Below are positions 20,672-52,620 of a stretch of DNA of 53,942 bases, one piece after another. The translations under genes were made by a program, and so were the position numbers. Source of the stretch: Bacteroides sp. Its GTDB lineage: Bacteria > Bacteroidota > Bacteroidia > Bacteroidales > Muribaculaceae. A model generated the notes under the pieces. It was given only the letters and a program-made list of their open reading frames with translations. It ran no database searches and was not told the origin of the DNA. The number at the start of each line of letters is the position of its first letter. Position 1 is the stretch's first letter. The DNA lies in contig JAAVCX010000006.1 in NCBI GenBank assembly GCA_014802105.1, positions 20,665 through 74,606 on the forward strand, given 5' to 3'.

Positions 20672-21808
20672 ATGAAACGTATACTGCTGTCAGCCCTGCT
20701 CTGCACTCTGTTTCTGCTCCCCTCGGGCCTCAAGGCCGAGGAGCTTCAGCCGCGTCCCGAGATACTGAAGACGCTCGTCAATGTCAACAACTACTACATG
20801 AAGCAGCATCCCGACCCGCTGCTCGGTATCCCCTACTACTCGCGTAAGAAGGTCTACGAAGCAAATATCTGGACCCGCACAATCTATTTCGAGGGACTCA
20901 TGGCTCTCTATTCCATCTATCCCGACAATAAACTGCTCAATTATGCCATGGAGTGGGCCGAGGGTTTTGACTGGGGCATGCGCCGCGACGACACTACCAC
21001 CCGCAACGCCGACAATTATGCCTGCTCTCAGGTTTATATCGACCTGTATCGTCTGACTCCCCGTCCCGAGATGCTCACTAAGGTCAAAGGTTGCATGAAC
21101 ATGCTCGTCAACACACCCCAGGTTGAAGACTGGACTTGGATCGATGCCATCCAGATGGGCATGCCTATACTCATGAAACTCTCAGCCACTACCGGCGACC
21201 CTCGCTATGCCGAGAAAGCCTACGACATGTATTCCTGGACCCGCAACACACTTGCAGGAGGTCTCTACAATAAAAAAGACGGACTGTGGTGGCGCGACAA
21301 AGACTTTGTGCCCCCCTACAAGGAGCCTAACGGCAAAGACTGCTACTGGTCGCGCGGCAACGGCTGGGTGGTAGCTGCACTGGTGCGCGCTCTCGAGGAG
21401 ATGGCCCCTGACGCTCCCCATCGCGATGAGTATGAGAAAGACCTCAAGGACATGTGTGCCGCGCTGGTGAAATGTCAGCGTGAGGACGGATTCTGGAATG
21501 TATCACTCCATGACCCCAACAACTATGGCGGAAAAGAACTCACCGGCACCGCACTCTTTGTCTACGGCATGGCCTACGGTGTGCGCACCGGTCTGCTCGA
21601 TGCCAAGACCTACATGCCCGTGATCACCAAGGCCTGGAACGCCATGGTAAAGGATGCCGTTCACCCCAACGGTTATCTCGGCTATGTGCAGGGCACAGGT
21701 AAGGAGCCTAAGGACGGTCAGCCTGTCAAATATGACTCCAAGCCCGACTTTGATGACTATGGCACAGGTTGCTTCCTTCTCGCCGGAACTGAGGTCTACA
21801 AGCTTTGA
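20672..21808 (+). CDS. GH105 unsaturated rhamnogalacturonyl hydrolase
   Basis: 378 residues, right for GH105. The signal peptide covers about 1-22. The (alpha/alpha)6 barrel carries the expected motifs: RRDDTTTRNADNYACSQVY near residue 110, the catalytic-Asp segment DWTWIDAIQMGMP near residue 153, GLWWRD, and YWSRGNGWVVAAL near residue 227. The family hydrates the 4,5-double bond of terminal unsaturated galacturonate left by pectin lyases and releases it. The sugar then opens to 4-deoxy-5-keto-hexuronate. The enzyme is exported, so this product appears in the periplasm, which matters for the kdu genes at 44-47 kb. It is the last gene of the operon. Confidence 0.9.
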   Translation: MKRILLSALLCTLFLLPSGLKAEELQPRPEILKTLVNVNNYYMKQHPDPLLGIPYYSRKKVYEANIWTRTIYFEGLMALYSIYPDNKLLNYAMEWAEGFDWGMRRDDTTTRNADNYACSQVYIDLYRLTPRPEMLTKVKGCMNMLVNTPQVEDWTWIDAIQMGMPILMKLSATTGDPRYAEKAYDMYSWTRNTLAGGLYNKKDGLWWRDKDFVPPYKEPNGKDCYWSRGNGWVVAALVRALEEMAPDAPHRDEYEKDLKDMCAALVKCQREDGFWNVSLHDPNNYGGKELTGTALFVYGMAYGVRTGLLDAKTYMPVITKAWNAMVKDAVHPNGYLGYVQGTGKEPKDGQPVKYDSKPDFDDYGTGCFLLAGTEVYKL

Positions 21809-28200: not shown

Positions 28201-30973
28201 CGAGCCCGGATCAACCGAGACAGTCATCTTCCGTGTCACTAATTTGCAGGGTCATGGACGCGAGACAGCCGTAATCGCCGGGATGTATAACTCAGCGATC
28301 AACGCCATCGCCTCGGCTCGGCCCTGGAGCTTCAACGCTTCGCCGGCCCGCAACGACAGGTTTTCTATAAACATCTCACCATCAGGTGGTTCATGGAGCT
28401 CATTCCGCATTTTCAGACAGAGAAACACCCGCAGGAGATGTACCGAGCTTATCGCGCCGTTATTCAACACCTGGGGACGACCGTTCAATTCATATCTCTT
28501 CGGAGGTACAAACCTCATGAGTAGATACTACAAATCAGCCATGAGAGCCACCACCACCGCAGGATCTGCCGATGGAGAGGAGGTAATGGATGTAGCGGAG
28601 CAAATCAGCTACGACTCAGCAGCTCCCATGGACATGATGGTCTTAAGCGAGCCGAAATTGATAGCCGGAGGGAGCATTGAGGAATCAGCCGCCGACAATG
28701 AAGCTGATGCCGGTAATGGCGGTGCTCCTGAAACAGATGCCGGGGGAGAGGTATTCAACTATCGAGAATCTGTCGTCCCTCTCGCGTTTTTCCGTCCCGA
28801 TCTGATCACAGATCCTGACGGCAACCTGGCTTTGAAATTTACAGTCCCTGATGCCAATGCCACTTGGCGCCTTCAATTGCTCGCTTTTACCGATTCACTG
28901 CTTTCGGCGAATTACTCGCGGGAGCTGACAGTGTCACGTAGGGTCATGGTGCAACCCAATATGCCGCGTTTCGTGAGGTCGGGCGACACAGTTGTAATAC
29001 CCGTGACCGTCATGAACAATTGCGACTCAACGCTCACAGCCACCGTGAGTCTGGACTGCTACGATCCATATAATGGCAAGGAACTTGTCAATGTCAACCG
29101 AGCAGTTGAAATATCCGCCCACTCATCAGTTGTATCATCTATCACTGTCAATGTACCCGACGCTGTCTCCTCTCTTGGCTTCAGGGTCAAAGCTATATCT
29201 GACCTCGGCAGCGATGGCGAGCGGAGCGTCATTCCGGTACTGCCGTCACTGACAGTAGTCCGTGAAAGTGTTCCGTTCTATCTTGCACCGGGCGGAGGAA
29301 CTGTCACTCTCGACATCCCCTCGATGCCTCGTGGCGGAAATGCAACAATGCAGATCTGCACCAACCCGGCTTGGAGCGTAGTCACAGCTCTGCCCGGACT
29401 GCTCACCAAGCAAGCAGTGACTTCCATCGAAGCAGCCGAGGCCATATTTGCGGCATCGGTAGCCACGGGCCTCGTCAAGGACAATCCCGCGATAGCCAGC
29501 GCTCTGACCGAGTGGACTGCACGCGGAAGCAAGACCGACGAACTCTCCTCGATGCTCGAGCGCAACGAGGATCTTAAGATCATGCTCCTCAACGCCACAC
29601 CCTGGATCTCAGAGGCCAAGGATGATACCCAGCGCATGAGTCGTCTGGCTCTACTCTTTGACACCAAACTCATCGACAAGGCTATCAACGATAATATAGC
29701 CCTGCTTTCCCGACTCGCCACCCCCTCGGGAGGCTGGAAATGGTCGCCTCTGAGCGACGATGCTTCGGAATGGGCAACATCAAGTGTACTCAACACATTA
29801 GGTCATGTTGTTCAGCTCGGTTATCTGCCAGCCTCAGGCGAGCTTAAACGCCTACTGACCAAAGCCCTCGCGTGGGATACATCTCTGACACTTAAGCAAT
29901 TCAAGAAATATCCTGACGGCGACTATACTGAATATGTCGATCGTCATACCCTCTATGCCCCTCTCGGCATAGGAAAACCCGAAACAACTATAGTAAACGC
30001 CACGATCCGACACATTCTCTCAACCTGGAGAAACGCACCTCTGACTACCAAAGCTATAGATGCACGCCTGCTGTTTGTCAATGGCTACCAAGAAGTGGCT
30101 CGCTCCATCCTGACATCTATCCGAGAGTTTGCCATCAGTGATGCGTCACGCGGAATGTGGTTCCCGTCACTCACCGACAACCCCTCTTTGGGATCGATGG
30201 AGATACTCTCGTCGACATCTCTAATTCTCGAGACGATAGCCCTGATCGATCCCACTTCTACCGATATAGACGGTCTGAGACAATGGTTAATACTAAGTAA
30301 AGGGGCTCAGAACTGGGGGACATCGACAGCCGCGACTCAAATCATAGCTTCCATTCTTACCACCTCACGCCGATGGATCGCGACCCCCTCCAATGCTTTG
30401 ATCAAGATAGACGGACGACTCATTACTTCCGATGAAATAAACCATATCACGGGAGAATGGGAGACTGTTCTTGAGCCGAAACGTGTCTCGGGCAAGAAAG
30501 TGAAAGCAGAGGTTAAGACTGACTCGCCGTCATGGGGAGCACTCTATTGCAGCTATGAAGCTCCCGGCGACTCGGTCAAGGCTACATCTTGTCCCGAACT
30601 ATCGCTCACACGCACTCTGCTCCCGCCGGCCGACTCGCTCTCTTTGGGTGGTCGGGTCACAGTGCTTCTCACCCTCAAGGTCAATGAAGACATGGACTAT
30701 GTTGTAATTGACGATCAGCGCGGAGCCTGTTTTGAACCCGTCGATCAACTTCCGGCGACAGTGTGGACCGACGGTGTCAGAGCATATCGCGTCAGCGGAG
30801 ACACCTCAACACGTTTCTTTATTGATAGACTGCGCCGCGGTACTTACCAGATCACATACGATGTCTACGTTAATAACGCCGGCACCTTCACTTCAGGCAT
30901 AGCCACTGTCCAGAGCCTATATGCTCCGCGTTTCACCGCCCACTCCTCGGGTACAACCCTCTATGTAAAATGA
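25298..30973 (+). CDS. Bacterial alpha-2-macroglobulin family protein
   Basis: 1,891 residues. The signal peptide spans about 1-24 with no lipobox. A helical N-terminal region of about 300 residues precedes a series of beta-sandwich macroglobulin domains. An acidic, Ala/Gly-rich stretch (about 1105-1150) may serve as bait. SVVPLAFFRPDLITDPDGNLALKFTVPD near residue 1158 is the A2M signature, followed by the terpenoid-cyclase-like alpha-toroid (about 1370-1680) and a receptor-binding-like end. The CxEQ thioester is absent; the matching place reads TSIEAAEAIF. Bacterial A2Ms trap proteases in the periplasm, and Bacteroidetes forms often lack the thioester. The stop overlaps the next start by 4 bp. 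Confidence 0.87.
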   Translation: MTILRSIFTAIVFASSILANALAAVPTKTVSPDFAYPQKVSQTSMETLKTALADGDRQATLRALIDYTLAQSSISPANITRSLSLIDSVANVKTIDTVTRAMLNILRATIYENVYGNQKWKYDRRSLPLTPLPEDINEWSGQQFRDVIARLYDEALADSTALLASPLTDWKNVVEQDRMTVTYYPTLLDFVASKAITTFSSWNNEPAFYPYRLVAEASDANKQFVSVTLKQAPVSNRILGLYSMLIRHSRSGSAPDVNYRLSRLSFLLDNSPATSTDWATARYNAYSELYMSLSDRDGKPESEYVGDILLSLPLTQQYNKKIYDLINSFLKEYPRYWRADCMRNTLDILGHKEIIVEGPHLTAPGRETVIKVIMNNVTDASLKLCDVSSSEAARDFYDTRKSQALKTVATIPLRAKGEIPFSDTLEIRHVFPACGAFIAIPSAKDEVVSARESYYKIRVSEIAMIYGALNGRRQLWAVSADDGAPVPNVKIGITESPYRDSSTTIDIGVTDNDGGLQIPAKSRGAVTASKGSDRFASVIYIGEYTSRDDRPQKRADAYTSLPLYHHGDTVEWSAICYETGGQACRPRAGEKIPVVLRDANYQNIDTAESVSDRYGRINGSFILPAEGLSGHFSLLIDGMTAVSFEVSDYKLPTFQVLPSAAANDTPREGEVTLGGKAVNYSGFPVQDAEVKIALSVSNGWRWGPSYEIETFNDTTDSNGRYSIVIPADVLQNSPFPKGYYTASVSVTSSAGETQTASLSFSRGRRYNITAVTPAIHSLSNKSLTLTSTVKDFSDSPVGLSVNIALSNGRDTVSRAVADPCATISLDGISQGVYTLTFACEEADTLRREIIIYDPEATESPCPGQLLWPPMHTVTTDLDGHGSWLVAASCPTHILATLSTSDSIISQQWIDAAKGFNRLPVNLPAGVDQATLTYAAVGDYRNSSGSVTISRKDSEKGLRIITETFRDNLEPGSTETVIFRVTNLQGHGRETAVIAGMYNSAINAIASARPWSFNASPARNDRFSINISPSGGSWSSFRIFRQRNTRRRCTELIAPLFNTWGRPFNSYLFGGTNLMSRYYKSAMRATTTAGSADGEEVMDVAEQISYDSAAPMDMMVLSEPKLIAGGSIEESAADNEADAGNGGAPETDAGGEVFNYRESVVPLAFFRPDLITDPDGNLALKFTVPDANATWRLQLLAFTDSLLSANYSRELTVSRRVMVQPNMPRFVRSGDTVVIPVTVMNNCDSTLTATVSLDCYDPYNGKELVNVNRAVEISAHSSVVSSITVNVPDAVSSLGFRVKAISDLGSDGERSVIPVLPSLTVVRESVPFYLAPGGGTVTLDIPSMPRGGNATMQICTNPAWSVVTALPGLLTKQAVTSIEAAEAIFAASVATGLVKDNPAIASALTEWTARGSKTDELSSMLERNEDLKIMLLNATPWISEAKDDTQRMSRLALLFDTKLIDKAINDNIALLSRLATPSGGWKWSPLSDDASEWATSSVLNTLGHVVQLGYLPASGELKRLLTKALAWDTSLTLKQFKKYPDGDYTEYVDRHTLYAPLGIGKPETTIVNATIRHILSTWRNAPLTTKAIDARLLFVNGYQEVARSILTSIREFAISDASRGMWFPSLTDNPSLGSMEILSSTSLILETIALIDPTSTDIDGLRQWLILSKGAQNWGTSTAATQIIASILTTSRRWIATPSNALIKIDGRLITSDEINHITGEWETVLEPKRVSGKKVKAEVKTDSPSWGALYCSYEAPGDSVKATSCPELSLTRTLLPPADSLSLGGRVTVLLTLKVNEDMDYVVIDDQRGACFEPVDQLPATVWTDGVRAYRVSGDTSTRFFIDRLRRGTYQITYDVYVNNAGTFTSGIATVQSLYAPRFTAHSSGTTLYVK

Positions 30974-40846: not shown

Positions 40847-41449
40847 TCAGTAGAGCAGCACCGTCAGAGAGACGGGGCCTTGTGCGCCGGTGATGTGGAC
40901 AGCCTCGATGTCGGCTGTTGCCGACGGGCCCGAGAAGAGTGAAGAATATTGTATCTTCGAGAGATTCATACGTGTATATGCGTCCTGGAGACCGTCGGTG
41001 ATCCTGTTTTTTTCGAGCAGCAGATAAAGCTTTTCAGCAAACAGTCCGTTGGCCATCCGGGTGAAGGACTCGGGCGAGACAAGTACACTGCCTGTCTCTC
41101 CGACACCGAGCAAACCCTCCCCTACGCACGCACTCAAACGTTCGGCATCGGCCGGAGTCTTGACGAGGTCTGGCGTCATGTTTCCGTTGTAACCATCGAC
41201 GGCACTAAATATCCGGTTGGACTGAGACGGGACAAGGTTTTGCTTCAGCCAGGAGATCGCCTCGTCGCGCGATGTCAAAGTGATAACTTTTCCATCAAAT
41301 CCTTCCACGTGACTGATGAAATTGTCCACAGGGTCACCGGCGATAGCAAAGACGGGGACGTCAGGATGCTCGTAGGGTTTGGGCCGGTTGGCACGGACAC
41401 GCCCCAGAATACGATCGCGGGCAGTGAGGGTATTGTTTTCTATATTCAT
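40847..41449 (-). CDS. lutC: LutC/YkgG-type LUD-domain protein
   Basis: About 200 residues from the ATG at 41449. An upstream TTG at 41503 would overlap lutB by 41 nt. The LUD domain shows GEGLLGVGETGSVLVSPESF near residue 105-125 and the terminal HITGAQGPVSLTVLLY. With LutA and LutB it forms the L-lactate dehydrogenase complex (YkgEFG) that oxidises lactate to pyruvate at the membrane. It is the last gene of the lutABC operon. Confidence 0.87.
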   Translation of the reverse strand: MNIENNTLTARDRILGRVRANRPKPYEHPDVPVFAIAGDPVDNFISHVEGFDGKVITLTSRDEAISWLKQNLVPSQSNRIFSAVDGYNGNMTPDLVKTPADAERLSACVGEGLLGVGETGSVLVSPESFTRMANGLFAEKLYLLLEKNRITDGLQDAYTRMNLSKIQYSSLFSGPSATADIEAVHITGAQGPVSLTVLLY

Positions 41450-41462
41450 AGCTGGTTTTTCG

Positions 41463-42866
41463 TTAATCTTTGGTGTCATCGTTGTCATCCCTGTTTTTCT
41501 CAAACCATTGACGGAAAGTCTGTTCAGGCGGCAGGGGGTTGCTGTGCCACTCGGCCCAAGGATTTATACCGCTCTCGGCTACAGCCGCCGGAGTGTGGCG
41601 CAGAGCCCACAGACCGAGACGCTCGGCATGCTGAAGATTGGTGGAACTCTTGAGCACCTCTCCCATGAGTCCTTCTTCAAGAGTGTGGGAGAACAGAGCC
41701 TGACGGTTTTCCACGACTACCTGACGCCAATAGAAGATAAGTTCGGGCAACGGCACTTTGACAGGACACACGTCACCACACGATCCGCAATGAGTGCAGG
41801 AGAATGGCAGACGCGCATAGCGGTGTAGATCATAGGATGGCATGAGGGCAAGCCCGAGCGGCCCCATATAATTGGCATCGTAGGATATACCCGAAGTGCG
41901 CCTGAACACGGGACATGTGTTCATACATGTGCCGCAACGCATACATTTCAACACTTCCCAATAAGACTGGCCGAGACGCTCGGAGCGTCCGTTGTCGAGC
42001 ATCACGACGTGTATCTCCTGACCGGGGGCAGGAGCCGAGATGTGAGACGTGTACTGAGTGATGTCATAGCCCAGCGAGCTTCGCGACAGTAATCTCAGAA
42101 ACAGTGGAAGGTCGGCCTGGGAGGGTATCACTTTTTCAATGCCGATAGTGACGATCAGCAGCGGAGGCACTGTGGCACATATATCCACGTCGCCCTCGTT
42201 GGAACACATCACTACCGTGCCGGTCTCGGCCACCGCATAGTTGCAACCGATCATTCCGGCCTCGGCCTTGACATAGCGCTTACGCATATCAGCGCGCATC
42301 ACACTGTTGAGATATGTCGGGTCGTCATTGGAAGGGTCGGAGCCAAGTTTCTCGGCAAATATACGGGCCACGTCGGTGCGGAGCTTATGGATCGCCGGCA
42401 TCACTATGTGGCTGTCGCGCTGATTGTCGAGCTGCTGTATGCGTTCGCCAAGATCTGACTCATTTACTTCTATCCCGTGTTTCTCAAGATACTCCCTCAT
42501 TCCACACTCATCCATCGTCATGGACTTTCCTTTGGTCAGCGAGGTCACCTCATGAGAACGCAGTATCTCAAGCACAATATCATTATGGTCGAGAGGTGTC
42601 TCCGCCCAATGCACTATGACGCCTCTGGAAGTGAGATTTTCTTCAAACTTCTCGAGATACTCGTCAAGGTGAGACAGAGTGTGTTCTTTGATTTCAGATG
42701 CGATGTCGCGCATCTGCTCCCACTCCGGAAGAGTGGCCGCAACTTTGTCGCGACGCATGCGGGCGGCCCAGAGGCAACGGTCGTTGCTCTCGCGATGAGG
42801 AGTATCGGCTATAAATTCGGCGCCGAGTTTAACTTGATTGACCTGTCGGCTCATAGGTGTATTCAT
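41463..42866 (-). CDS. lutB: LutB/YkgF-type iron-sulfur protein of L-lactate oxidation
   Basis: 467 residues. The N-terminal LUD domain (about 60-300) contains AEAGMIGCNYAVAETGTVVM near residue 203. Two 4Fe-4S motifs follow, CMRCGTCMNTCP near residue 310 and CTHCGSCGDVCPVKVPLPEL near residue 360, and a C-terminal helical part. It transfers electrons between the LutA/LutC partners and the quinone pool. It overlaps lutA by 4 bp and sits 13 nt before lutC. Confidence 0.93.
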   Translation of the reverse strand: MNTPMSRQVNQVKLGAEFIADTPHRESNDRCLWAARMRRDKVAATLPEWEQMRDIASEIKEHTLSHLDEYLEKFEENLTSRGVIVHWAETPLDHNDIVLEILRSHEVTSLTKGKSMTMDECGMREYLEKHGIEVNESDLGERIQQLDNQRDSHIVMPAIHKLRTDVARIFAEKLGSDPSNDDPTYLNSVMRADMRKRYVKAEAGMIGCNYAVAETGTVVMCSNEGDVDICATVPPLLIVTIGIEKVIPSQADLPLFLRLLSRSSLGYDITQYTSHISAPAPGQEIHVVMLDNGRSERLGQSYWEVLKCMRCGTCMNTCPVFRRTSGISYDANYMGPLGLALMPSYDLHRYARLPFSCTHCGSCGDVCPVKVPLPELIFYWRQVVVENRQALFSHTLEEGLMGEVLKSSTNLQHAERLGLWALRHTPAAVAESGINPWAEWHSNPLPPEQTFRQWFEKNRDDNDDTKD

Positions 42867-43606
42867 TTTGCGTCGCCGTTGAGTATCTCGGCGATATAAT
42901 AAAACTTAATATCCAGACCAAACTTCCGCGCCACACACGACTGATGGAGCAGGCACGACATATCCTGAGACGTAACATAGTGAAATCCATTGCGGGCATA
43001 GTCGTTCACCTTGTCAAGTCCCTGCTGTCCCGAGCAGCTTTTATCCCAGATGGCGAAAGTGCCTCCGAAGCCACAGCACTCATCGCGACGCGTGGCATAG
43101 CCTACCTCTATTCCATCGACCAGACTCAAGAGAGAGGCGGTCTTGGAAAACTCTGGGATCATGAGCTCTGAGGGGCGCGCCTCGTTGAGATAGCGTAGGG
43201 AATGGCAACCGTTATGGAGTGCGACGCGATGGGGGAATGATGCCCAGGGCAAGGAATCGACCTTGACAATATCATGAAGGAAGGTCACCAGGTCGACAGC
43301 CGATTGGCGTATTTGCCTGATTTCAGAGGTCTGAGGCAGATCCTCGAAATGATTTCTGAACTGGTCGGCACATATACCCGAGGGCATCACTATATGATCG
43401 TAGCCAGCCAAATGCGAGGCGGCCGCGCTCTCGACCTTACAGGCCGTGTGGGTGTAGCCCATATCCTTCATAGGCAGACCGCAACAAGCGGCTGATTCGA
43501 TAAACTCGGGCTTAAATCCAAGTCTACGCAGGAGTTTAAATGACGAAATGGCGGCCTGAGGTGCTATCGCATCTATATAGCATGGCACGAAAAAACCTAT
43601 TTTCAT
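42863..43606 (-). CDS. lutA: LutA/YkgE-type CCG-domain heterodisulfide-like protein
   Basis: 247 residues with two CCG-type cysteine-rich domains: CYID ... ESAACCGLPMKDMGY (about 9-52) and HNGCHSLRYL ... RRDECCGFGGTFAIW (about 131-185). Such domains bind non-cubane [4Fe-4S] clusters. It is first in the lutABC operon. A lactate permease gene is not present in the window. A TATTTTTG -7-like box at 43681-43674 abuts the palindromic repeat upstream. Confidence 0.91.
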   Translation of the reverse strand: MKIGFFVPCYIDAIAPQAAISSFKLLRRLGFKPEFIESAACCGLPMKDMGYTHTACKVESAAASHLAGYDHIVMPSGICADQFRNHFEDLPQTSEIRQIRQSAVDLVTFLHDIVKVDSLPWASFPHRVALHNGCHSLRYLNEARPSELMIPEFSKTASLLSLVDGIEVGYATRRDECCGFGGTFAIWDKSCSGQQGLDKVNDYARNGFHYVTSQDMSCLLHQSCVARKFGLDIKFYYIAEILNGDAK

Positions 43607-44078: not shown

Positions 44079-44873
44079 ATGGTAAATTTTTCGCTTGAGG
44101 GCAAAGTTGCTCTTGTCACCGGTGCCGCTTACGGTATCGGTCTGGCTATCGCTCAGGCCTATGCAGAGGCCGGTGCTAAAATCGTGTTTAACTGCTCTCG
44201 TCAGGAGACCGTCGACCGCGGTCTGAAAGCCTACAAGGAGCTTGGCATCGAGGCCAAAGGCTATCTCTGTGATGTGACCGACGAGGAGGCTGTCAAGGCT
44301 ATGGTGGCCGATATCGAGGCTACAGTAGGCACCATCGACATTCTCGTCAACAACGCCGGTATCATCAAGCGCATCCCCATGACCGAGATGAACGTCGAGG
44401 ACTTCCGCCGCGTAGTCGATGTCGACCTCGTCGCTCCCTATATCTGCGCCAAGGCCGTTATCCCCGGCATGATCAAGAAAGGACACGGCAAGATCATCAA
44501 CATCTGCTCGATGATGAGCGAGCTCGGCCGCGAGACCGTCAGCGCATACGCAGCCGCTAAGGGTGGCCTGAAGATGCTGACCCGTAATATCTGCTCGGAG
44601 TTTGGAGAATACAACATCCAGTGTAACGGCATAGGCCCCGGCTACATAGCCACCGACCAGACCGCTCCCCTGCGCGAGATCCAGCCCGACGGCAGCCGTC
44701 ACCCCTTCGATCAGTTCATCATCTCCAAGACTCCCGCCGCCCGCTGGGGCACTCCCGAGGATCTGATGGGCCCCGCCGTGTTCCTCGCTTCCGATGCTTC
44801 TGACTTTGTAAACGGCCACGTTCTCTACGTCGACGGCGGTATCCTCGCCTATATCGGCAAACAGCCTAAGTGA
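44079..44873 (+). CDS. kduD: 2-dehydro-3-deoxy-D-gluconate 5-dehydrogenase (SDR)
   Basis: 264 residues, short-chain dehydrogenase. The cofactor motif is TGAAYGIGLAI (about 14-24), with NNAG near residue 91 and a catalytic Ser with SAYAAAKGG near residue 160. The C-terminal DGGILAYIGKQP is the usual end of KduD. It reduces 3-deoxy-D-glycero-2,5-hexodiulosonate to 2-keto-3-deoxygluconate with NADH in the cytoplasm. Alone it could also be called gluconate 5-dehydrogenase, but kduI two genes downstream supports KduD. The stop codon overlaps the next start as TGATG, which couples translation to the transporter. Confidence 0.9.
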   Translation: MVNFSLEGKVALVTGAAYGIGLAIAQAYAEAGAKIVFNCSRQETVDRGLKAYKELGIEAKGYLCDVTDEEAVKAMVADIEATVGTIDILVNNAGIIKRIPMTEMNVEDFRRVVDVDLVAPYICAKAVIPGMIKKGHGKIINICSMMSELGRETVSAYAAAKGGLKMLTRNICSEFGEYNIQCNGIGPGYIATDQTAPLREIQPDGSRHPFDQFIISKTPAARWGTPEDLMGPAVFLASDASDFVNGHVLYVDGGILAYIGKQPK

Positions 44874-46297
44874 TGGAGGCGGTATTTGCTTATGTCATCT
44901 CGCTCGGCGCAGCGGTGATGATGCCTATCATCTTCCTTGTGCTCGGTCTCTGTATCGGCCTTGGATTTAACAAGTCGCTGATGAGCGGCCTGAAGGTCGG
45001 AGTAGGTTTCATCGGTCTCGGCATAGTCACCGCTCTGCTCACCGACTCGATGTCTGATCCCCTCAAGACCATCACCAATCTCTATCACCTCCAGCTTCAG
45101 GTGTTTGATATGGGATGGCCTGCCGCCGCATCGGTTGCCTACAACACTGCTGTCGGAGCCTTCATCATCCCCGTATGCCTTGGAGTCAACATTCTGCTGC
45201 TCTTCCTCAAAGGCACCCGCACCGTCAATATCGACCTCTGGAACTACTGGCACTTCGCCTTTATCGGAGGTGTGGTCTACTTTGCCACCGAGTCGATCGG
45301 CTGGGGCTTCTTCGCCGCTATCATCTGCTATATCATTACCCTAGTGATAGCCGACGTGACAGCTCCCAAATTTCAGGAGTTCTACCACGATGTTGACGGT
45401 ATCAGCATACCTCAGCCTTTCTGTGCAGGCTTTGTACCCTTTGCATGGGGCATCAACGCCGTTCTCGACCGCATCCCCGGCATGAGCCGTCTGGAGATCG
45501 ACGCCGAGGGTCTGAAGAAAAAGTTTGGCATAGCCGGCGAACCGCTGTTTCTCGGCATCGTCGTGGGTATCATCATCGGATGCCTGCAGTTTGACTCCTG
45601 GGATGCCATTGTAAGCAATATCCCCAAGATCCTCATGCTCGGTGTGAAGATGGGTGCCGTCATGGAGCTTATCCCTCGCGTGACCGTACTCTTCATCGAG
45701 GGCCTGAAGCCTATTTCCGAGGCCACCCGCACTATGATCGCCCGTAAGTTCAAGGGAGCCGAAGGCCTCTCCATCGGCATGAGCCCCGCGCTCGTGATCG
45801 GCCATCCCACTACCCTGGTGGCCTCGATCATCCTGATCCCCGTCACTCTCATCATAGCAGTGATCCTCCCGGGCAACGCCTTCCTGCCTCTGGCTTCGCT
45901 CGCAGGAATGTTCTATATCTTCCCGCTCGTGCTCCCCTACACCAAGGGTAGTGTGCTCAAGACTATCATTGTAGGTCTCGCGGTGCTTATCCTGGCGCTC
46001 TATCTGGTCACCTGGATGGCCCCCGATTTCACCAAGGCCGCCCATGAGGTAGCTCTCGCCCACCCCGATGATAAAGCCGTGCAGGTACCCGCCGACTTCC
46101 TCGCCGGATCGCTCGACTTTGCCGGCAGTCCTCTCGGCGCAGCCATCTACTGGTGTATCGAAGGCTTCAAGTCGCTCAGTATATATATAGGTGCAGCGAT
46201 CCTGACAGTCTTTACAGCATGTCTCGTGTGGTGGAACCGCCGCCGCATGATACGCCTCGAGGCCGCCCGCCCCGCTTCAAGCCACATCACCGATTAA
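44873..46297 (+). CDS. Orphan galactitol-type PTS EIIC homologue, candidate deoxy-keto-uronate transporter
   Basis: About 474 residues with roughly ten hydrophobic segments. Galactitol EIIC (GatC) features include the N-terminal [48 protein letters not shown], and [19 protein letters not shown] near residue 300. No EIIA, EIIB, HPr or EI gene lies near it, so phosphoryl transfer is unlikely and it may work as a secondary or facilitated carrier. It sits between kduD and a signal-peptide-bearing kduI, and the start couples to kduD. I infer that it imports 2,5-diketo-3-deoxygluconate or 5-keto-4-deoxyuronate from the periplasm. It could instead move an unrelated polyol. Confidence 0.75.
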
Positions 46298-46319: not shown

Positions 46320-47243
46320 ATGAAAAAAATATTTTCAGCAATCGCCCTCCTGGGCATATCCCTCTCAGCTATGGCTCAGAACACTGAATACACCATACAG
46401 CGTGCCGTTCACCCTGAAGACTTCAAGAACTACGACACCAACCAGCTGCGCTCGCGCTTCATGATGCCCAAGGTCATGGAAGAGAACAAGATCAATCTCA
46501 CCTACTCAATGTATGACCGTCTCATCTTCGGCGGAGTGGTGCCCGTAGGCAAGACCATTGAGCTTGAGACCATCGATCCCCTGAAGGCCGAATATTTCCT
46601 GGAGCGCCGCGAGCTCGGCGTGATCAATATCGGCGGCGACGGCATCGTCAGTGTCGACGGCAAGGACTATGAGCTCCACTTCAAGGATGCCCTCTATGTA
46701 GGCCGTGGCAACAAGAAAGTCACTTTCCGCAGCAAGGATGACTCTAATCCCGCCAAATTCTACCTCAACTCCACCACCGCCCATAAGGCCTACAAGACCC
46801 AGCTGATCACCATCGACGGCCGCAAGGGTTCGATCAAGGCCAACAGCTTTGCCGCCGGCAAGATGGAGGAGAGCAACGACCGTGTCATCAACCAGCTCAT
46901 CGTCAACAATGTGCTTGAAGAGGGTCCCTGTCAGCTTCAGATGGGTCTCACCGAGCTCAAGCCCGGCAGCGTGTGGAACACTATGCCTGCCCACACTCAC
47001 GACCGTCGCGTGGAGGCCTACTTCTACTTCAATGTTCCCGAGGGTAACGCCGTGTGTCACTTCATGGGTGAGCCTCAGGAGAACCGCATCCTCTGGCTCC
47101 ACAACGAGCAGGCCATCATGTCGCCCGAGTGGTCGATCCATGCCGCAGCCGGTACCTCCAACTACATGTTCATCTGGGGCATGGGTGGCGAGAACCTCAA
47201 CTATGGCGACATGGACAAGGTGACCTACCTTGAGATGAAGTAA
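46320..47243 (+). CDS. kduI: 5-keto-4-deoxyuronate isomerase KduI with a signal peptide
   Basis: 307 residues, about 30 longer than usual. The core is clearly Kdu[61 protein letters not shown] with [26 protein letters not shown] and [18 protein letters not shown]. The zinc ligands of the cupin site (His-x-His, Glu and a later His) are in place. The extra N-terminus is a normal Sec signal peptide: MKK, hydrophobic [16 protein letters not shown], cleavage before QNTEY. KduI converts 4-deoxy-5-keto-hexuronate to 3-deoxy-2,5-hexodiulosonate and is otherwise cytosolic. The enzyme is therefore predicted to be periplasmic. Confidence 0.92.
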
Positions 47244-47268
47244 TTTCTCCCCCCCGTTTGATCCATAG

Positions 47269-47312
47269 GGCTGCCGGCAAGTCTGTCCACGAGTGCCGAT
47301 CGGCCGGCAGCC
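47269..47312 (+). terminator. Hairpin after kduI, weak terminator candidate
   Basis: A perfect 10-bp stem GGCTGCCGGC encloses a 24-nt loop, 26 nt past the kduI stop. There is no T run, so it may be a stabilising 3' structure rather than an intrinsic terminator. Confidence 0.4.
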
Positions 47313-47453
47313 ACTTTACAAAATATAGTTACGTCACTTGAGGTTGGGTCGAAAGAGCTGTTTTCATCGGGGTCTGACCCCGTCACACGAGACCCGAAAT
47401 ATAGAAATCCATCATTGACGACACAACCTCCCCTCCCCCACTCCACTGCATTT

Positions 47454-48806
47454 ATGAAAAACATGAACGAGTTTAAGGAAGTCTCGACAAGCTACTCGGT
47501 AGCCGAGGCTGTCCGCGAAGCTCAGCGATGCCTCAACTGCAAGGTGCCCGGTTGTAAGAAAGGCTGTCCCATCTCTCAGGATATACCCGAATGGATCGGC
47601 CAGCTCTCACAGGGCAACTTCGGCAACGCCATGAGTATCATCAACGCCAAGAGCAACCTCCCGGCCGTGTGTGGCCGCGTGTGTGCCCACGAGCGTCAGT
47701 GTGAAGGACACTGTGTACTTGCCAAAGCCGGCAAACATATCAATATCGGCAAGCTCGAGCGTTTTATAGCCGACTTTGACAGCAAAGCAGGTCTCACCCA
47801 CGAAGGCATCAGCGAGAAATCGCGCGGCTCGGTGGCCGTGATAGGCAGCGGGCCCGCCGGTCTCACCATAGCGGGCGACATGGCCCGCAAAGGGTTCAGG
47901 GTCGAGATCTTCGAGATGGAGCCCGAGCCCGGAGGAGTGCTTCAGTTCGGCATACCCGAGTATCGACTGCCACGCAAGGTGGTAGACCGCGAGATCAAGA
48001 AGATCGAAAACCTCGGAGTTGTCTTCCATCTGTCGACCACGGTAGGGCGCGACCTCACGGTCGACGATCTCTTTGACCGCGGATTTGACGCCATCTTCAT
48101 GGGCACCGGCACAGGGCGTCCCCGCCGCCTCCCCATCGAGGGTGCCGACCATCCCGGAGTGCGTCAGGCCATCTGGTTCCTGCGTCGTGTGAGCCTCTAT
48201 CAGAGCGGATGCATCGACCGCAAGGAAGTAGTCATCTCGGAGGGCGACCATATCGCCGTGATCGGCTGTGGCAACACCGCCATCGACGCGGCCCGCACCG
48301 CCCTGCGCATGGGAGCTGCCTCGGTCAAAGTCATCTATCATCGCACCATCAACGAGATGAGCGCCCTGCGCTCCGAGTATGAGGACGCCGTGGCCGAGGG
48401 AGTCGAATTTATCTGGAAATCGTCAGTGACACGCATCATAGGCGGCCCCGACGACAAACTCAGATCTATCTTTGTCTCCACCGATGGCTCAGAGCCTGTG
48501 GAAATGCCGCTCGACCGCCTCATCATGGCCGTCGGCAGCGTGCCGGCCTCACGCATCGTCTCCACCACCGCCGGCATCGAGGTCGACGACCACGGCTATG
48601 TGCTCACCCGCGAAGAGCCCTACGGCATGACCACCCGTCGCGGAGTCTTTGCCGGGGGCGACGTCACCAACCGTCCGGCCACCGTGGTCCACGCCATGCG
48701 CGATGCCAAACAGGTAGCCGAGTCGATGATACGCTACATTGACGCCAAGCGCCTCATGGAGCAACTCTCACGCGACGAAGCCGATATGTCACGCACCAAT
48801 CCCTGA
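47454..48806 (+). CDS. GltD/NfnL-like NAD(P)-dependent oxidoreductase
   Basis: About 450 residues from the ATG at 47454. An earlier TTG at 47415 has no support. The N-terminal Fe-S domain has CLNCKVPGCKKGCPISQDIP and CGRVCAHERQCEGHC. An FAD-binding GSGPAGLTIAGDMARKGF, the GGVLQFGIPEYRLP segment and an NAD(P)-binding GCGNTAIDAARTALRMG complete a glutamate-synthase small-subunit type flavoprotein. No large GltB subunit is adjacent. It may be a glutamate synthase small chain, an Nfn-type transhydrogenase subunit or another dehydrogenase. Its place between kduI and kdgK may be coincidental. Confidence 0.82.
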   Translation: MKNMNEFKEVSTSYSVAEAVREAQRCLNCKVPGCKKGCPISQDIPEWIGQLSQGNFGNAMSIINAKSNLPAVCGRVCAHERQCEGHCVLAKAGKHINIGKLERFIADFDSKAGLTHEGISEKSRGSVAVIGSGPAGLTIAGDMARKGFRVEIFEMEPEPGGVLQFGIPEYRLPRKVVDREIKKIENLGVVFHLSTTVGRDLTVDDLFDRGFDAIFMGTGTGRPRRLPIEGADHPGVRQAIWFLRRVSLYQSGCIDRKEVVISEGDHIAVIGCGNTAIDAARTALRMGAASVKVIYHRTINEMSALRSEYEDAVAEGVEFIWKSSVTRIIGGPDDKLRSIFVSTDGSEPVEMPLDRLIMAVGSVPASRIVSTTAGIEVDDHGYVLTREEPYGMTTRRGVFAGGDVTNRPATVVHAMRDAKQVAESMIRYIDAKRLMEQLSRDEADMSRTNP

Positions 48807-48907
48807 AATGACTCCCCCGGGGACAGGTGACCGACACAACCCACTCTCCCAGTCAACCAAGTATCAACTATTTTATTTCACAAATCACTCAATAACCCAA
48901 AATCACC

Positions 48908-49930
48908 ATGAGTAAAGTTGTAACTCTCGGCGAAATCATGCTTCGCCTTTCGCCTGCAGGCTGCCATCGTTTCATCCAGGTCGATAGCTTCGACGTAATC
49001 TGGGGTGGCGGTGAGGCCAACGTAGCTGTCAGCTGTGCCAACTATGGCCATGAAGCCTACTTCGTTTCCAAGCTTCCCAAGCACGAGATCGGCCAGGCCG
49101 CTCTCAATGCCCTCCGTCGCTATGGCGTACACACCGACCACATCGCCCGTGGCGGTGACCGCGTAGGTATCTACTACTGCGAGACCGGTGCCTCGATGCG
49201 CCCATCCAAGGTGATCTACGACCGCGCCAATTCAGCTATCGCCGAGGCCGATCCCTCCGACTTTGACTTCGACGCCATCATGGAAGGTGCCGACTGGTTC
49301 CACTGGAGCGGCATCACCCCTGCCATCTCCGACAAGGCTGCCGAGATCACCCGTCTTGCATGTGAGGCTGCCAAGCGTCACGGTGTCACCGTATCGGTTG
49401 ACCTCAACTTCCGCAAGAAACTCTGGACCAAGGAGAAGGCTCAGAGCATCATGCGCCCCCTCATGCAGTATGTCGACGTATGCATCGGCAACGAGGAAGA
49501 CGCCGAACTCTGTCTCGGCTTCAAGCCCGACGCTGACGTAGAGGGTGGCGAGACCAACGCCGAAGGCTACAAGGGCATTTTCAAGGCCATGGCCGAAGAG
49601 TTTGGCTTCAAGTATGTCATCTCTACCCTCCGCGAGTCGTTCTCCGCAACCCACAACGGCTGGAAGGCCATGATCTACAACGGCAAGGAGTTCTACGAGA
49701 GCAAGCGCTACGACATCAACCCCATCATCGACCGCGTCGGTGGCGGCGACTCCTTCTCGGGCGGCATCATCCACGGCCTGCTCACCATGCCCACCCAGGG
49801 CGAGGCTCTGGAGTTTGCAGTAGCAGCCTCAGCCCTCAAGCAGACTATCCCCGGAGACTTCAACCTCGTGACTGTCGACGAGGTCAAGGCTCTCGCCGGC
49901 GGTAGCGCCAACGGTCGCGTACAGCGCTGA
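48908..49930 (+). CDS. kdgK: 2-keto-3-deoxygluconate kinase (PfkB family)
   Basis: 340 residues. The PfkB/ribokinase fold shows a GEIMLRLSPAGCHRF start, WGGGEANVAVSCANYG (about 37-52) for substrate binding and IDRVGGGDSFSGGIIHGL (about 275-292) with the catalytic Asp. The kdu genes 1.7 kb upstream point to 2-keto-3-deoxygluconate as substrate, making KDPG. The matching KDPG aldolase (eda) is not in the window, though it often neighbours kdgK. Codons are strongly C-biased, suggesting high expression. Confidence 0.85.
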   Translation: MSKVVTLGEIMLRLSPAGCHRFIQVDSFDVIWGGGEANVAVSCANYGHEAYFVSKLPKHEIGQAALNALRRYGVHTDHIARGGDRVGIYYCETGASMRPSKVIYDRANSAIAEADPSDFDFDAIMEGADWFHWSGITPAISDKAAEITRLACEAAKRHGVTVSVDLNFRKKLWTKEKAQSIMRPLMQYVDVCIGNEEDAELCLGFKPDADVEGGETNAEGYKGIFKAMAEEFGFKYVISTLRESFSATHNGWKAMIYNGKEFYESKRYDINPIIDRVGGGDSFSGGIIHGLLTMPTQGEALEFAVAASALKQTIPGDFNLVTVDEVKALAGGSANGRVQR

Positions 49931-49955
49931 TCACCGTTGACTATCCGATAAAAGT

Positions 49956-49999
49956 TCACCCCATCTGTGTCTCGGACTTATCCGCCACAGATGGGGTGA
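49956..49999 (+). terminator. Terminator after kdgK
   Basis: A 14-bp stem TCACCCCATCTGTG with a 16-nt loop, followed by a short T-rich tail, 25 nt past the stop codon. The gene on the other side is convergent, so the hairpin may serve both. Confidence 0.7.
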
Positions 50000-50041
50000 C
50001 TCTATTTTATAAATCTCAAAAGAAATTCAGCAGGGGCGCTA

Positions 50042-50572
50042 TCACATATTCTGATTCTGACCACCCATGCGCTCGCCGCCGCCACGACGCTCGCCTCCAC
50101 GACGGTCGCCGCCTCTCATATTGCGGCCACCCTGACGCATATCGCGGTTGCCCTGCATGTCACGGTTGCCGAGATTGAGATAAGCATTCTCGAGATACTG
50201 CACATACTGCTCGGGGGTCAGGATAGCCTTGATCTTAGCCAGATCCTCCTTGCGCTCCTGGAGCTGAGCCTCGGCACGAGCCTTGGGGTCAGCGATAGCT
50301 TCGCCCTTATTCTCACCCTTGGAGTTACGGGCCTCCTCGCGCATCTTCTTCATCTTCTCCTGCTTGGCATTGGCCAGAGCCTTCAGGTCGGCCAATTGCT
50401 GCTCCGAGAGATTAAGACCCTCGAAAGGATTGTAGACCTGACGGTTTCCACGGGCCGGAGCCTCGGTGCGGGTCTTGGCGTCGGGAGCCTGCCCGGGAGC
50501 CTGGGCGAAAGTCGCTGTGCTCGCCATAAGGCTTCCTATAACGATAGCGATGCTGAGAAAAGTCTTTTTCAT
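50042..50572 (-). CDS. Exported LTXXQ/Spy-like protein with an Arg/Gly-rich tail
   Basis: 176 residues. The signal peptide covers about 1-24 (ending TFAQA). The mature helical part has LNLSEQQLADLKALANAKQEKMKKM (about 54-78) and ILTPEQYVQYLENAYLNL (about 117-134), the repeated LTxxQ-like pattern of Spy/CpxP chaperones and Bacteroidetes DUF4890 proteins. The last 40 residues are Asn/Arg/Gly/Met-rich (NRDMQGNRDMRQGGRNMRGG) and probably disordered. It is convergent with kdgK. The function is inferred only as a periplasmic stress or adaptor protein. Confidence 0.7.
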   Translation of the reverse strand: MKKTFLSIAIVIGSLMASTATFAQAPGQAPDAKTRTEAPARGNRQVYNPFEGLNLSEQQLADLKALANAKQEKMKKMREEARNSKGENKGEAIADPKARAEAQLQERKEDLAKIKAILTPEQYVQYLENAYLNLGNRDMQGNRDMRQGGRNMRGGDRRGGERRGGGERMGGQNQNM

Positions 50573-50967
50573 AATCTATTGTTTTGAGTTAAGTAATTCT
50601 GATCGTCAGAGTGGCCGATCACCGACAGGGGCAATTCGCGCCACTCACAACTTTAAGACCCTCATTAACAACCGAAGTTTAGTATCACAAGCCAAATTTT
50701 AACATAGATTAACTTCTGTAATCTCCCTATCCACTCTACATTCATTGCGCATTACATTCCTATTAATTAACTTTGCACGTGATAAAAGCGGTACTGTTAC
50801 CACTCAATATTAATCTAAACGACAATTATCAAACAAGCATTTTGGTTTTGATATAACTAAATTTATCCGATAAGGAAAAAACGTTTCAGACACTCCGCAT
50901 TAACTAATCCACGCCAGCCGAGAGGCCGGTCTATTATAAAAATAACTTTCTATACAAACTACAACTT
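50573..50967. other. A+T-rich divergent promoter region
   Basis: This lies between the LTXXQ gene (minus) and the pseudouridine synthase gene (plus). It holds the synthase promoter at 50745-50775 and a leader of about 190 nt with no clear hairpin. Otherwise I see no gene or repeat in it. Confidence 0.5.
50745..50775 (+). promoter_or_regulatory. Promoter of the pseudouridine synthase gene
   Basis: TTG (50745-50747) and TAACTTTG (50768-50775) start 23 nt apart. The leader to the ATG is long, about 190 nt. Confidence 0.55.
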
Positions 50968-52620
50968 ATGGACAGCAACGAGAAAAAGGGTAAGCGGCCC
51001 CGCATTGGCGGCTTTCGTCCTTATTCCGCAGAGTCGCCCGAGAGCAGCAGCCAACTGACTACGGGCAATGACAACAATTCATCATCCACATCATCATCTA
51101 CTTCCGACGCTGTAGCATCCTCCTCCGACACCCGTAGCGAGGGCTACTCACCCCGTCCCTACGGCGACCGTCAGCAGCGTCCCTATCAGCAGCGTACTTA
51201 CAATAACCAGGGTGGCTATCAGCCACGCAGCGCCTACCAGCCCCGCAACAATCAGGGCGGCTACCAGCCCCGTGGCGGTTACCAGCCCCGCAATACTCAG
51301 GGCTATCAGCCACGCGAGGGTTATCAACCCCGTGAAGGCTATCAGCCCCGCAACAATCATGAGGGCGGCTATCAGCCCCGCAACAATCACGAGGGCGGCT
51401 ATCAGCCCCACAGCACCCAGGAGGGAGGCTATCAGCCCCACAGCACCCAGGAGGGAGGCTATCAGCCACGCAACAACCAGGAGGGTGGCTATCAGCCCCG
51501 TAATAACCAGGGAGGCTATCAGCCACGCAACAACCAGGGTGGCTACCAGCCCCGCAACAACCAGGGTGGCTACCAGCCCCGCAACAACCAGGGCGGCTAT
51601 CAGCCCCGCAACAACCAGGGTGGCTATCAGCCCCGCAACAACCAGGGCGGCTATCAGCCCCGCAACAACCAGGGTGGCTATCAGCCCCGTAACAACCAGG
51701 GCGGCTATCAGCCCCGTAACAACCAGGGCGGCTATCAGCCCCGCAACAACCAGGGCGGCTACCAGAACAACCGCAACAAGCAGGGTGGCTTCCAGAACAA
51801 CCGCGGGCCCCGTCAGAACCAGTTTGGCATGCCCCAGGGTGGCCGCAGCTTCACACCGCGCCCCAAGCGCATCGAGTATGAAGTACCCGTTGTCGATCCC
51901 GACGAGCAGATACGCCTCAACAAATATCTGGCCAACGCCGGTCTGTGCTCACGCCGCGAAGCCGACGAGTATATCCTCAAAGGCCTCGTCAAGGTCAACG
52001 GCGAGGTGATCACCGAGCTCGGCTCCAAGATCAACCACTCCGACGTAGTGGAATATGACGGCAAGGTAGTGACCGCCGAGAAGAAGTGCTACATCCTGCT
52101 CAACAAGCCCAAAGACTGTGTCACCACCAGCGACGACCCCAACGGCCGACTCACAGTCATGGATCTCGTCAAGGGAGCCTGTGAGGAGCGCATCTATCCC
52201 GTGGGCCGTCTCGACCGCAACACCACCGGCGTACTCCTGCTCACCAATGACGGCGACCTCGCCTCCAAGCTCACCCACCCCAAGTTTGTCAAGAAAAAGA
52301 TCTACCACGTGTGGACCGACCACGACATCACCGAAGACGACATGCAGCGCATCGCCGACGGCATAGAGCTTGAAGACGGCCCCATCCACGCCGACGCCAT
52401 CTCCTACGCCACCGAGACCGACCGCAACCAGGCCGGCATCGAGATCCACTCGGGCCGCAACCGCATCGTGCGCCGCATCTTCGAACACCTCGGCTACCAC
52501 GTCACCAAGCTCGACCGCGTCTACTTCGCCGGACTCACCAAGAAAAACCTCCCCCGCGGCCGTTGGCGCTATCTCACCCAGGAAGAGGTCAACTTCCTCA
52601 AAATGGGCTCTTTTGAATAA
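50968..52620 (+). CDS. RluB/RsuA-family pseudouridine synthase with an N-terminal GGYQPRNNQ repeat domain
   Basis: 550 residues. After a Ser-rich leader (about 1-65), residues about 70-275 consist of about 20 imperfect YQPR units rich in Gly, Tyr, Gln, Arg and Asn. Ten consecutive 9-residue units GGYQPRNNQ are identical. The rest is a standard RsuA/RluB enzyme: S4 RNA-binding domain (IRLNKYLANAGLCSRREADEY, about 312-332) and a catalytic domain with PVGRLDRNTTGVLLLTNDGDL (about 410-430), whose Asp is the nucleophile. It isomerises uridine in 23S or 16S rRNA. The repeat domain is probably disordered and RNA-binding, as in RGG-like proteins. That is inference. Confidence 0.88.
   Translation: MDSNEKKGKRPRIGGFRPYSAESPESSSQLTTGNDNNSSSTSSSTSDAVASSSDTRSEGYSPRPYGDRQQRPYQQRTYNNQGGYQPRSAYQPRNNQGGYQPRGGYQPRNTQGYQPREGYQPREGYQPRNNHEGGYQPRNNHEGGYQPHSTQEGGYQPHSTQEGGYQPRNNQEGGYQPRNNQGGYQPRNNQGGYQPRNNQGGYQPRNNQGGYQPRNNQGGYQPRNNQGGYQPRNNQGGYQPRNNQGGYQPRNNQGGYQPRNNQGGYQNNRNKQGGFQNNRGPRQNQFGMPQGGRSFTPRPKRIEYEVPVVDPDEQIRLNKYLANAGLCSRREADEYILKGLVKVNGEVITELGSKINHSDVVEYDGKVVTAEKKCYILLNKPKDCVTTSDDPNGRLTVMDLVKGACEERIYPVGRLDRNTTGVLLLTNDGDLASKLTHPKFVKKKIYHVWTDHDITEDDMQRIADGIELEDGPIHADAISYATETDRNQAGIEIHSGRNRIVRRIFEHLGYHVTKLDRVYFAGLTKKNLPRGRWRYLTQEEVNFLKMGSFE
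51484..51753 (+). repeat. Ten tandem 27-bp units encoding GGYQPRNNQ
   Basis: Units start every 27 bp from 51484 to 51727 and differ only at synonymous third positions. More divergent units (PHSTQE, PRNNHE, PREGY forms) extend the array upstream to about 51210, and a degenerate unit follows at 51754. Confidence 0.9.

Follow-up and report, generated by a model that had tools for sequence, protein, structure and literature searches.

Genes at the kdu locus

The window analysed here, a stretch of 53,942 nucleotides from contig JAAVCX010000006.1 of a Bacteroides sp. of the Muribaculaceae, carries on its forward strand (46320..47243) a kduI gene with an ATG start, coding for a 5-keto-4-deoxyuronate isomerase of 307 amino acids that is predicted to be exported. 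The protein reached 399.9 bits with the NCBIfam equivalog model NF002091 (cut-off 250) and is a full-model member of this family; its residues 26–306 correspond to model positions 3–276 of 277, indicating that the enzyme is complete. The closest solved chain is 9kd0 (545.5 bits), and a PADLOC scan of KduI returned no family. An alignment of 14 KduI sequences, three of them leaderless, showed no variation at H225, H227 and E232 (codons within 46992..47015, forward strand) and at H274 (47139..47141, forward strand), which line up with the motif of the E. coli enzyme and which we take to be the zinc ligands. The metal-site residues are thus intact, as claimed in an earlier note on this DNA. The same note had described the protein as about 30 residues longer than E. 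coli KduI. The excess is present, but only about 20 residues of it represent the leader, the rest being internal insertions and not part of an N-terminal extension.

Upstream of kduI lies the gene for a lone EIIC-GAT (galactitol IIC-like) permease of 475 residues (44870..46297, forward strand), whose start overlaps the end of a reductase gene and whose stop is located 23 bases before kduI. The permease scored 248.3 bits with PF03611 (cut-off 24.2) and belongs to this family; from its spacing and its co-occurrence with KduI (see below), we propose it as a candidate importer of the KduI product. The reductase (44079..44873, forward strand) is a KduD/DhuD-like SDR protein (PF13561, 205.6 bits), which was recognised best among the NCBIfam models by PRK07097 for gluconate 5-dehydrogenase (501.9 bits, cut-off 369) and stayed below the cut-off of the KduD equivalog TIGR01832 (230.2 vs. 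338.85). A KdgK-like sugar kinase of the PfkB family is encoded at 48908..49930 on the forward strand (PF00294, 106.8 bits); it scored 523.8 bits with the kinase/aldolase fusion model NF041633, below the cut-off of 700. The models match both the reductase and the kinase from near residue 1, and neither protein carries a leader.

A possible source of substrate is a GH88/GH105-type unsaturated uronyl hydrolase (20672..21808, forward strand; PF07470, 283.9 bits), the N terminus of which is positive by our signal peptide rule. Directly before it, at 14944–20661, the window codes for a protein of 1,905 residues with GH106 and DUF4450 domains, and this neighbourhood would fit rhamnogalacturonan as the source. 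Beside the kdu operon we observed three minus-strand genes with LUD, 4Fe-4S and CCG domains (40847–43606), presumably a LutABC-like set for lactate utilisation. Further genes in the window code for a large alpha-2-macroglobulin-type protein with A2M and bMG10 domains (25298–30973) and for an S4-domain pseudouridine synthase (50968–52620), whose N-terminal extension is built from a repeat with a 27-base unit in 16.1 copies (51337–51790).

The window's own assembly, which is 77% complete, contains two KduI places with a leader on both. The second kduI allele (locus L003 on contig C18, which ends inside the repeat of the pseudouridine synthase gene) was compared with window positions 46389–51396. 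It matches the window at 98–100% from about base 660 of kduI, i.e. its last third, through the genes that follow, whereas the two sequences differ in the preceding two thirds of kduI and in the gene upstream of it. An aldolase gene (PF01081, 52.8 bits), which runs off the end of the contig, takes the place of the permease gene there. The two alleles may represent strain variants, the outcome of recombination or an assembly effect.

The N-terminal leader of KduI

The first 19 residues of the window KduI (46320..46376, forward strand) make up a predicted signal peptide with cleavage before Q20. For its recognition, we wrote a Sec/SPI rule for this analysis (not SignalP), which requires a basic n-region, an uncharged hydrophobic stretch and small residues at positions −3 and −1 and also demands that the whole leader stands ahead of the homologous core. 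The leader of the window KduI is located entirely N-terminal of the core and is positive by this rule, in agreement with the earlier note, which had assigned an N-terminal Sec signal peptide to the protein. Cleavage is predicted to expose Q20, matching the Q-rule of Bacteroidetes, for which an average of 71% is given in the part of the source available to us (PMC5837995). As controls we used 356 frames of DhuD, KdgK and Eda proteins, 331 of which were testable, the others being cut or without room for a leader, and none of the testable frames was positive. If the before-core condition is dropped, the rule misfires: 30 of the 356 control cores are scored as positive, as are 15 of 40 genes of the window, at least two of which we take to be cytosolic.

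In the sample of 247 genomes of the window's family, KduI was matched in 81 genomes at 84 places, of which 80 have a readable N terminus and four are fragments without one. All 80 readable copies carry a leader, 79 as judged by the rule and one (L139) by eye. Two of the checks that the earlier note had proposed, namely conservation of the extension among orthologues and signal-peptide behaviour, therefore came out in favour of its claim: the leader core is free of charges in 79 of the 80 copies, A, G, S or N followed by Q stands at the cleavage point in 68, and the layout withstands changes of the residues. Shuffling the family leaders retained this layout in only 3.5% of 16,000 draws. Among 97 close family pairs, we counted 721 nonsynonymous and 510 synonymous codon differences in the leader, compared with 1282 nonsynonymous and 4659 synonymous differences in the first 120 mature codons. 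The residues of the leader drift while its layout is kept, and the mature part is constrained. A chance open frame ahead of a cytosolic gene is ruled out by the presence of the leader in all readable copies together with the constraint on the reading frame. Taken together, these sequence features make it very likely that KduI is exported via the Sec system.

Distribution of the probably exported KduI and the permease

Most other KduIs of Bacteroidota that we examined begin at the core. Beyond the window genome, we found the exported form in Bacteroides, Phocaeicola, Prevotella and Paraprevotella. The order-level sample contains KduI in 92 of 344 genomes, and a leader-bearing KduI is present in nine of these (G000, G013, G301, G482, G319, G415, G387, G443 and G575). 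For the other 83, the N terminus was read directly wherever the locus sequence was retrieved and assessed manually from frame lengths in the remaining cases, where at most 14 residues precede the match; the KduI of G486 starts inside the core and was left unassigned. A permease scoring over the cut-off was detected in exactly the nine genomes with exported KduI. No such permease was found in the other 83 genomes with KduI or in any of the 335 genomes without exported KduI, the single match beyond the nine being a sub-threshold one in G546. The phylum sample contains the permease in two of 340 genomes, each with an exported KduI. Within the family sample, where the permease occurs in 79 of the 247 genomes, 77 genomes contain KduI and permease, four KduI only (three of them as fragments), two the permease only and 164 neither. 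G121 has a leader-bearing KduI and no permease match.

The set of named genomes was represented by the best 80 of at least 595 confirmed candidate relatives. By the rule, 53 of these 80 have leader and permease and 22 have neither; three show a leader with no permease gene in their locus, and two a permease with no leader. The three cases of the former kind differ from each other: L264 is truncated at the edge of its locus, the permease of L274 is located elsewhere in the genome, and L324 has an exported KduI and a second KduI in a genome with no permease. As to the permeases without a leader, the rule missed the leader of L295, which is evident by eye, and no leader was recognised in L279. 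L276, scored among the 22 with neither, has a permease elsewhere in the genome and likewise no recognised leader. The named carriers include Bacteroides mediterraneensis, B. caecigallinarum, B. heparinolyticus, Phocaeicola sartorii, Paraprevotella xylaniphila, Palleniella intestinalis and Prevotella species. Nine named genomes with exported KduI were checked for a second KduI, which was absent from five and present in the other four as a frame without room for a leader.

At the level of gene neighbourhoods, the permease is located at most four genes from KduI in 116 of 123 exported-type loci as against none of 63 leaderless loci. This count left out the window, L222, L276, L279 and all loci of less than 7,500 bases or with less than 3,000 bases upstream (including L324); some of its loci represent one genome reached twice, and L308 was scored as lacking the permease although one is visible. 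Some loci (L251, L272 and L284) additionally contain an MFS gene downstream of kduI (PF07690 in L251), which we take to be ExuT-like, resulting in a permease–KduI–MFS block.

The permease does not appear to be part of a functional PTS. We detected neither HPr (PF00381) nor EIIB (PF02302) in any of 16 genomes (the window's genome is 77% complete), and the window permease scored 360.1 bits with the model for the functional galactitol PTS (TIGR00827), below its cut-off of 542.2. The residues E266, Y91–T93 and Q182–C185 are kept in at least 97% of 174 permease relatives (repeat loci included) and differ in the solved galactitol IIC protein 9u82, which argues against galactitol as the substrate of the permease. 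We rather infer that it would carry the KduI product. The earlier note had suggested that the inner membrane divides the pathway into two parts, and the permease, which co-occurs almost only with exported KduI, lends independent support to this suggestion.

Evolution of the probably exported form

In a tree of 152 KduI rows, nearly all exported forms group together in a single clade, which comprises 77 rows and has top support. Because most exported forms belong to this one clade, the co-occurrence of leader and permease does not represent many independent events, and a paired test of leader versus permease on the 152-row tree did not contain enough independent pairs for a significant outcome. 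Outside the clade, near leaderless sequences, are L324 and the sequences L241 and L242 (genomes G319 and G415). L241 and L242 are accompanied by permeases with 76–77% identity to that of Phocaeicola sartorii, and G319 and G415 each also hold a leaderless KduI. In the G319/G415 lineage, a KduI of the leaderless type, with a permease of the same kind as its neighbour, may therefore have acquired a leader in a second event. As scored by the rule, the leader needs four changes on the 152-row tree, and two changes on a set of 69 rows when L276 and L279 are counted as exported-type; a single origin of the leader was not rejected (p-AU 0.40). The co-occurrence thus rests largely on one clade spread across families, plus the possible second case in G319 and G415.

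The exported clade also includes L274, L276 and L279 from Verrucomicrobiota/Kiritimatiellota MAGs, where we observed an exported-clade KduI together with an EIIC-GAT protein and a leader recognised by the rule in L274 only. Their position may be due to transfer or to a binning error.

Proposed route and alternatives

The location of KduI and its in vivo substrate, as well as the substrate of the permease and the direction of transport, we infer from the genes described above. In the proposed route, Sec would export active KduI to the periplasm, with signal peptidase I cutting before Q20. The GH88/105 enzyme would release the unsaturated uronate in the same compartment; a GH88 hydrolase of B. 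theta, BT3348, is described as periplasmic in the available part of PMC6994673. The exported KduI would then isomerise the uronate to 3-deoxy-D-glycero-2,5-hexodiulosonate. Because the reductase and the kinase have no leader, a KduI product formed in the periplasm would need a carrier. The EIIC-GAT protein is the candidate that the genomes provide for this role; as a secondary carrier that works independently of PTS phosphorylation, it would import 3-deoxy-D-glycero-2,5-hexodiulosonate, and the route would be finished in the cytosol by the reductase, KdgK and an aldolase. We regard this route as a whole, from periplasmic KduI via EIIC-GAT import to the cytosolic enzymes, as reasonably probable.

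KduI would stay in the cytosol if translation began at the ATG of codon 18, which would give a normal KduI start, or if the leader were vestigial. A late in-frame ATG is indeed found in 41 of the 80 family copies, but the 39 copies without it still keep the leader, and its layout, the open frame and the Q that follows the cleavage site are conserved, all of which speaks for its use. A leaderless start at codon 18 was rejected on the grounds that this ATG is not conserved, and we consider a cytosolic KduI highly improbable. Given export, the permease could still be a mere regulon partner that moves something else, such as a hexuronate, a polyol or the unisomerised uronate. The only solved relative of the permease that we found is in fact a galactitol IIC protein (9u82, 246.9 bits). 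However, the residues conserved in the permeases of Bacteroidales differ from those of 9u82, only two of the 79 family genomes with the permease lack a KduI match, and the order-level genomes without exported KduI are devoid of it (0/335), so that we judge a different cargo to be unlikely.

It is also conceivable that the exported KduI acts mainly on the saturated hexuronates galacturonate and glucuronate in the periplasm and that the permease imports the resulting ketouronates. An MFS gene follows kduI in several loci of Bacteroides and Prevotella (PF07690, 166.4 bits in L251), and relatives of it are found no more than four genes away in 28 of the 123 loci of the exported type; however, they also occur near 12 of 63 leaderless KduIs. 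E. coli KduI is reported to aid the breakdown of both hexuronates in the accessible part of PMC3578941, but the window operon joins kduI with a reductase and a KdgK-like kinase, i.e. with the route for unsaturated uronates. Saturated hexuronates as the main substrates therefore seem quite unlikely to us.

If periplasmic isomerisation followed by EIIC-GAT import applies, a reaction that is usually placed in the cytosol would move to the periplasm. Numerous relatives of Bacteroides in the gut seem to run one step of pectin and host-glycan breakdown outside the inner membrane, by means of an exported copy, nearly always encoded next to the permease, of an enzyme that is normally internal. The pairing of KduI with the permease suggests by which route these sugar acids may get into the cell: the pair is conserved across several gut families, has a solved member from B. 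ovatus and names a candidate importer, and the orphan PTS-like IIC proteins of Bacteroides would gain a function. Going further, we tentatively suggest, with the chances slightly short of even, an isomerise-then-import module in gut Bacteroidales, in which exported KduI would make the only form taken up by a dedicated PTS-free EIIC-GAT. In this way, isomerisation would gate the entry of unsaturated uronates derived from pectin and from the glycosaminoglycans of the host.

Comparison with known systems

KduI2 of B. ovatus (PDB 9kd0, released 2025-10-29) belongs to the exported subfamily, with 88% identity to L103. Unlike the window KduI, the deposited chain has no leader and starts two residues before the core, and its depositors may have been aware of the leader; the portion of the open PMC literature covered yielded no paper on 9kd0. 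KduI1 of B. ovatus (9kcz) and E. coli KduI (1x8m, 1xru) have the fold and the metal-site motif in common with the window KduI. They differ from it in that 9kcz is 91.6% identical to the leaderless KduI L225 and that the E. coli enzyme aligns from its own N terminus.

The galactitol IIC protein 9u82 matches the window permease over query residues 4–471, but a functional galactitol PTS differs from the system considered here, where HPr and EIIB are missing from the 16 genomes and the residues of the substrate region are unlike those of 9u82. Lone IIC homologues have been reported as one copy in five of seven Bacteroides and proposed to be secondary carriers, with no substrate named in the available part of the source (PMC6281302). 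B. ovatus should be among these carriers, because the source names only B. cellulosilyticus and B. fragilis as species without one. The same part of the text terms these genes monocistronic, unlike the layout at the window locus.

Clusters with kduI have been surveyed in 3,550 strains (PMC12838403, available in part), and the kduI–dhuD hybrid cluster of Bacteroidota described there combines an isomerase gene with a DhuD-type reductase, as in the window. The main text of that survey contains neither "signal peptide" nor "signal sequence", and we found no description of an exported KduI or of its carrier in the open PMC literature as far as it was accessible. The enzyme and the permease family are thus already known, and it is the location of the isomerase and its pairing with the permease, a pairing we did not find described within that scope, that set the system at this locus apart from them.
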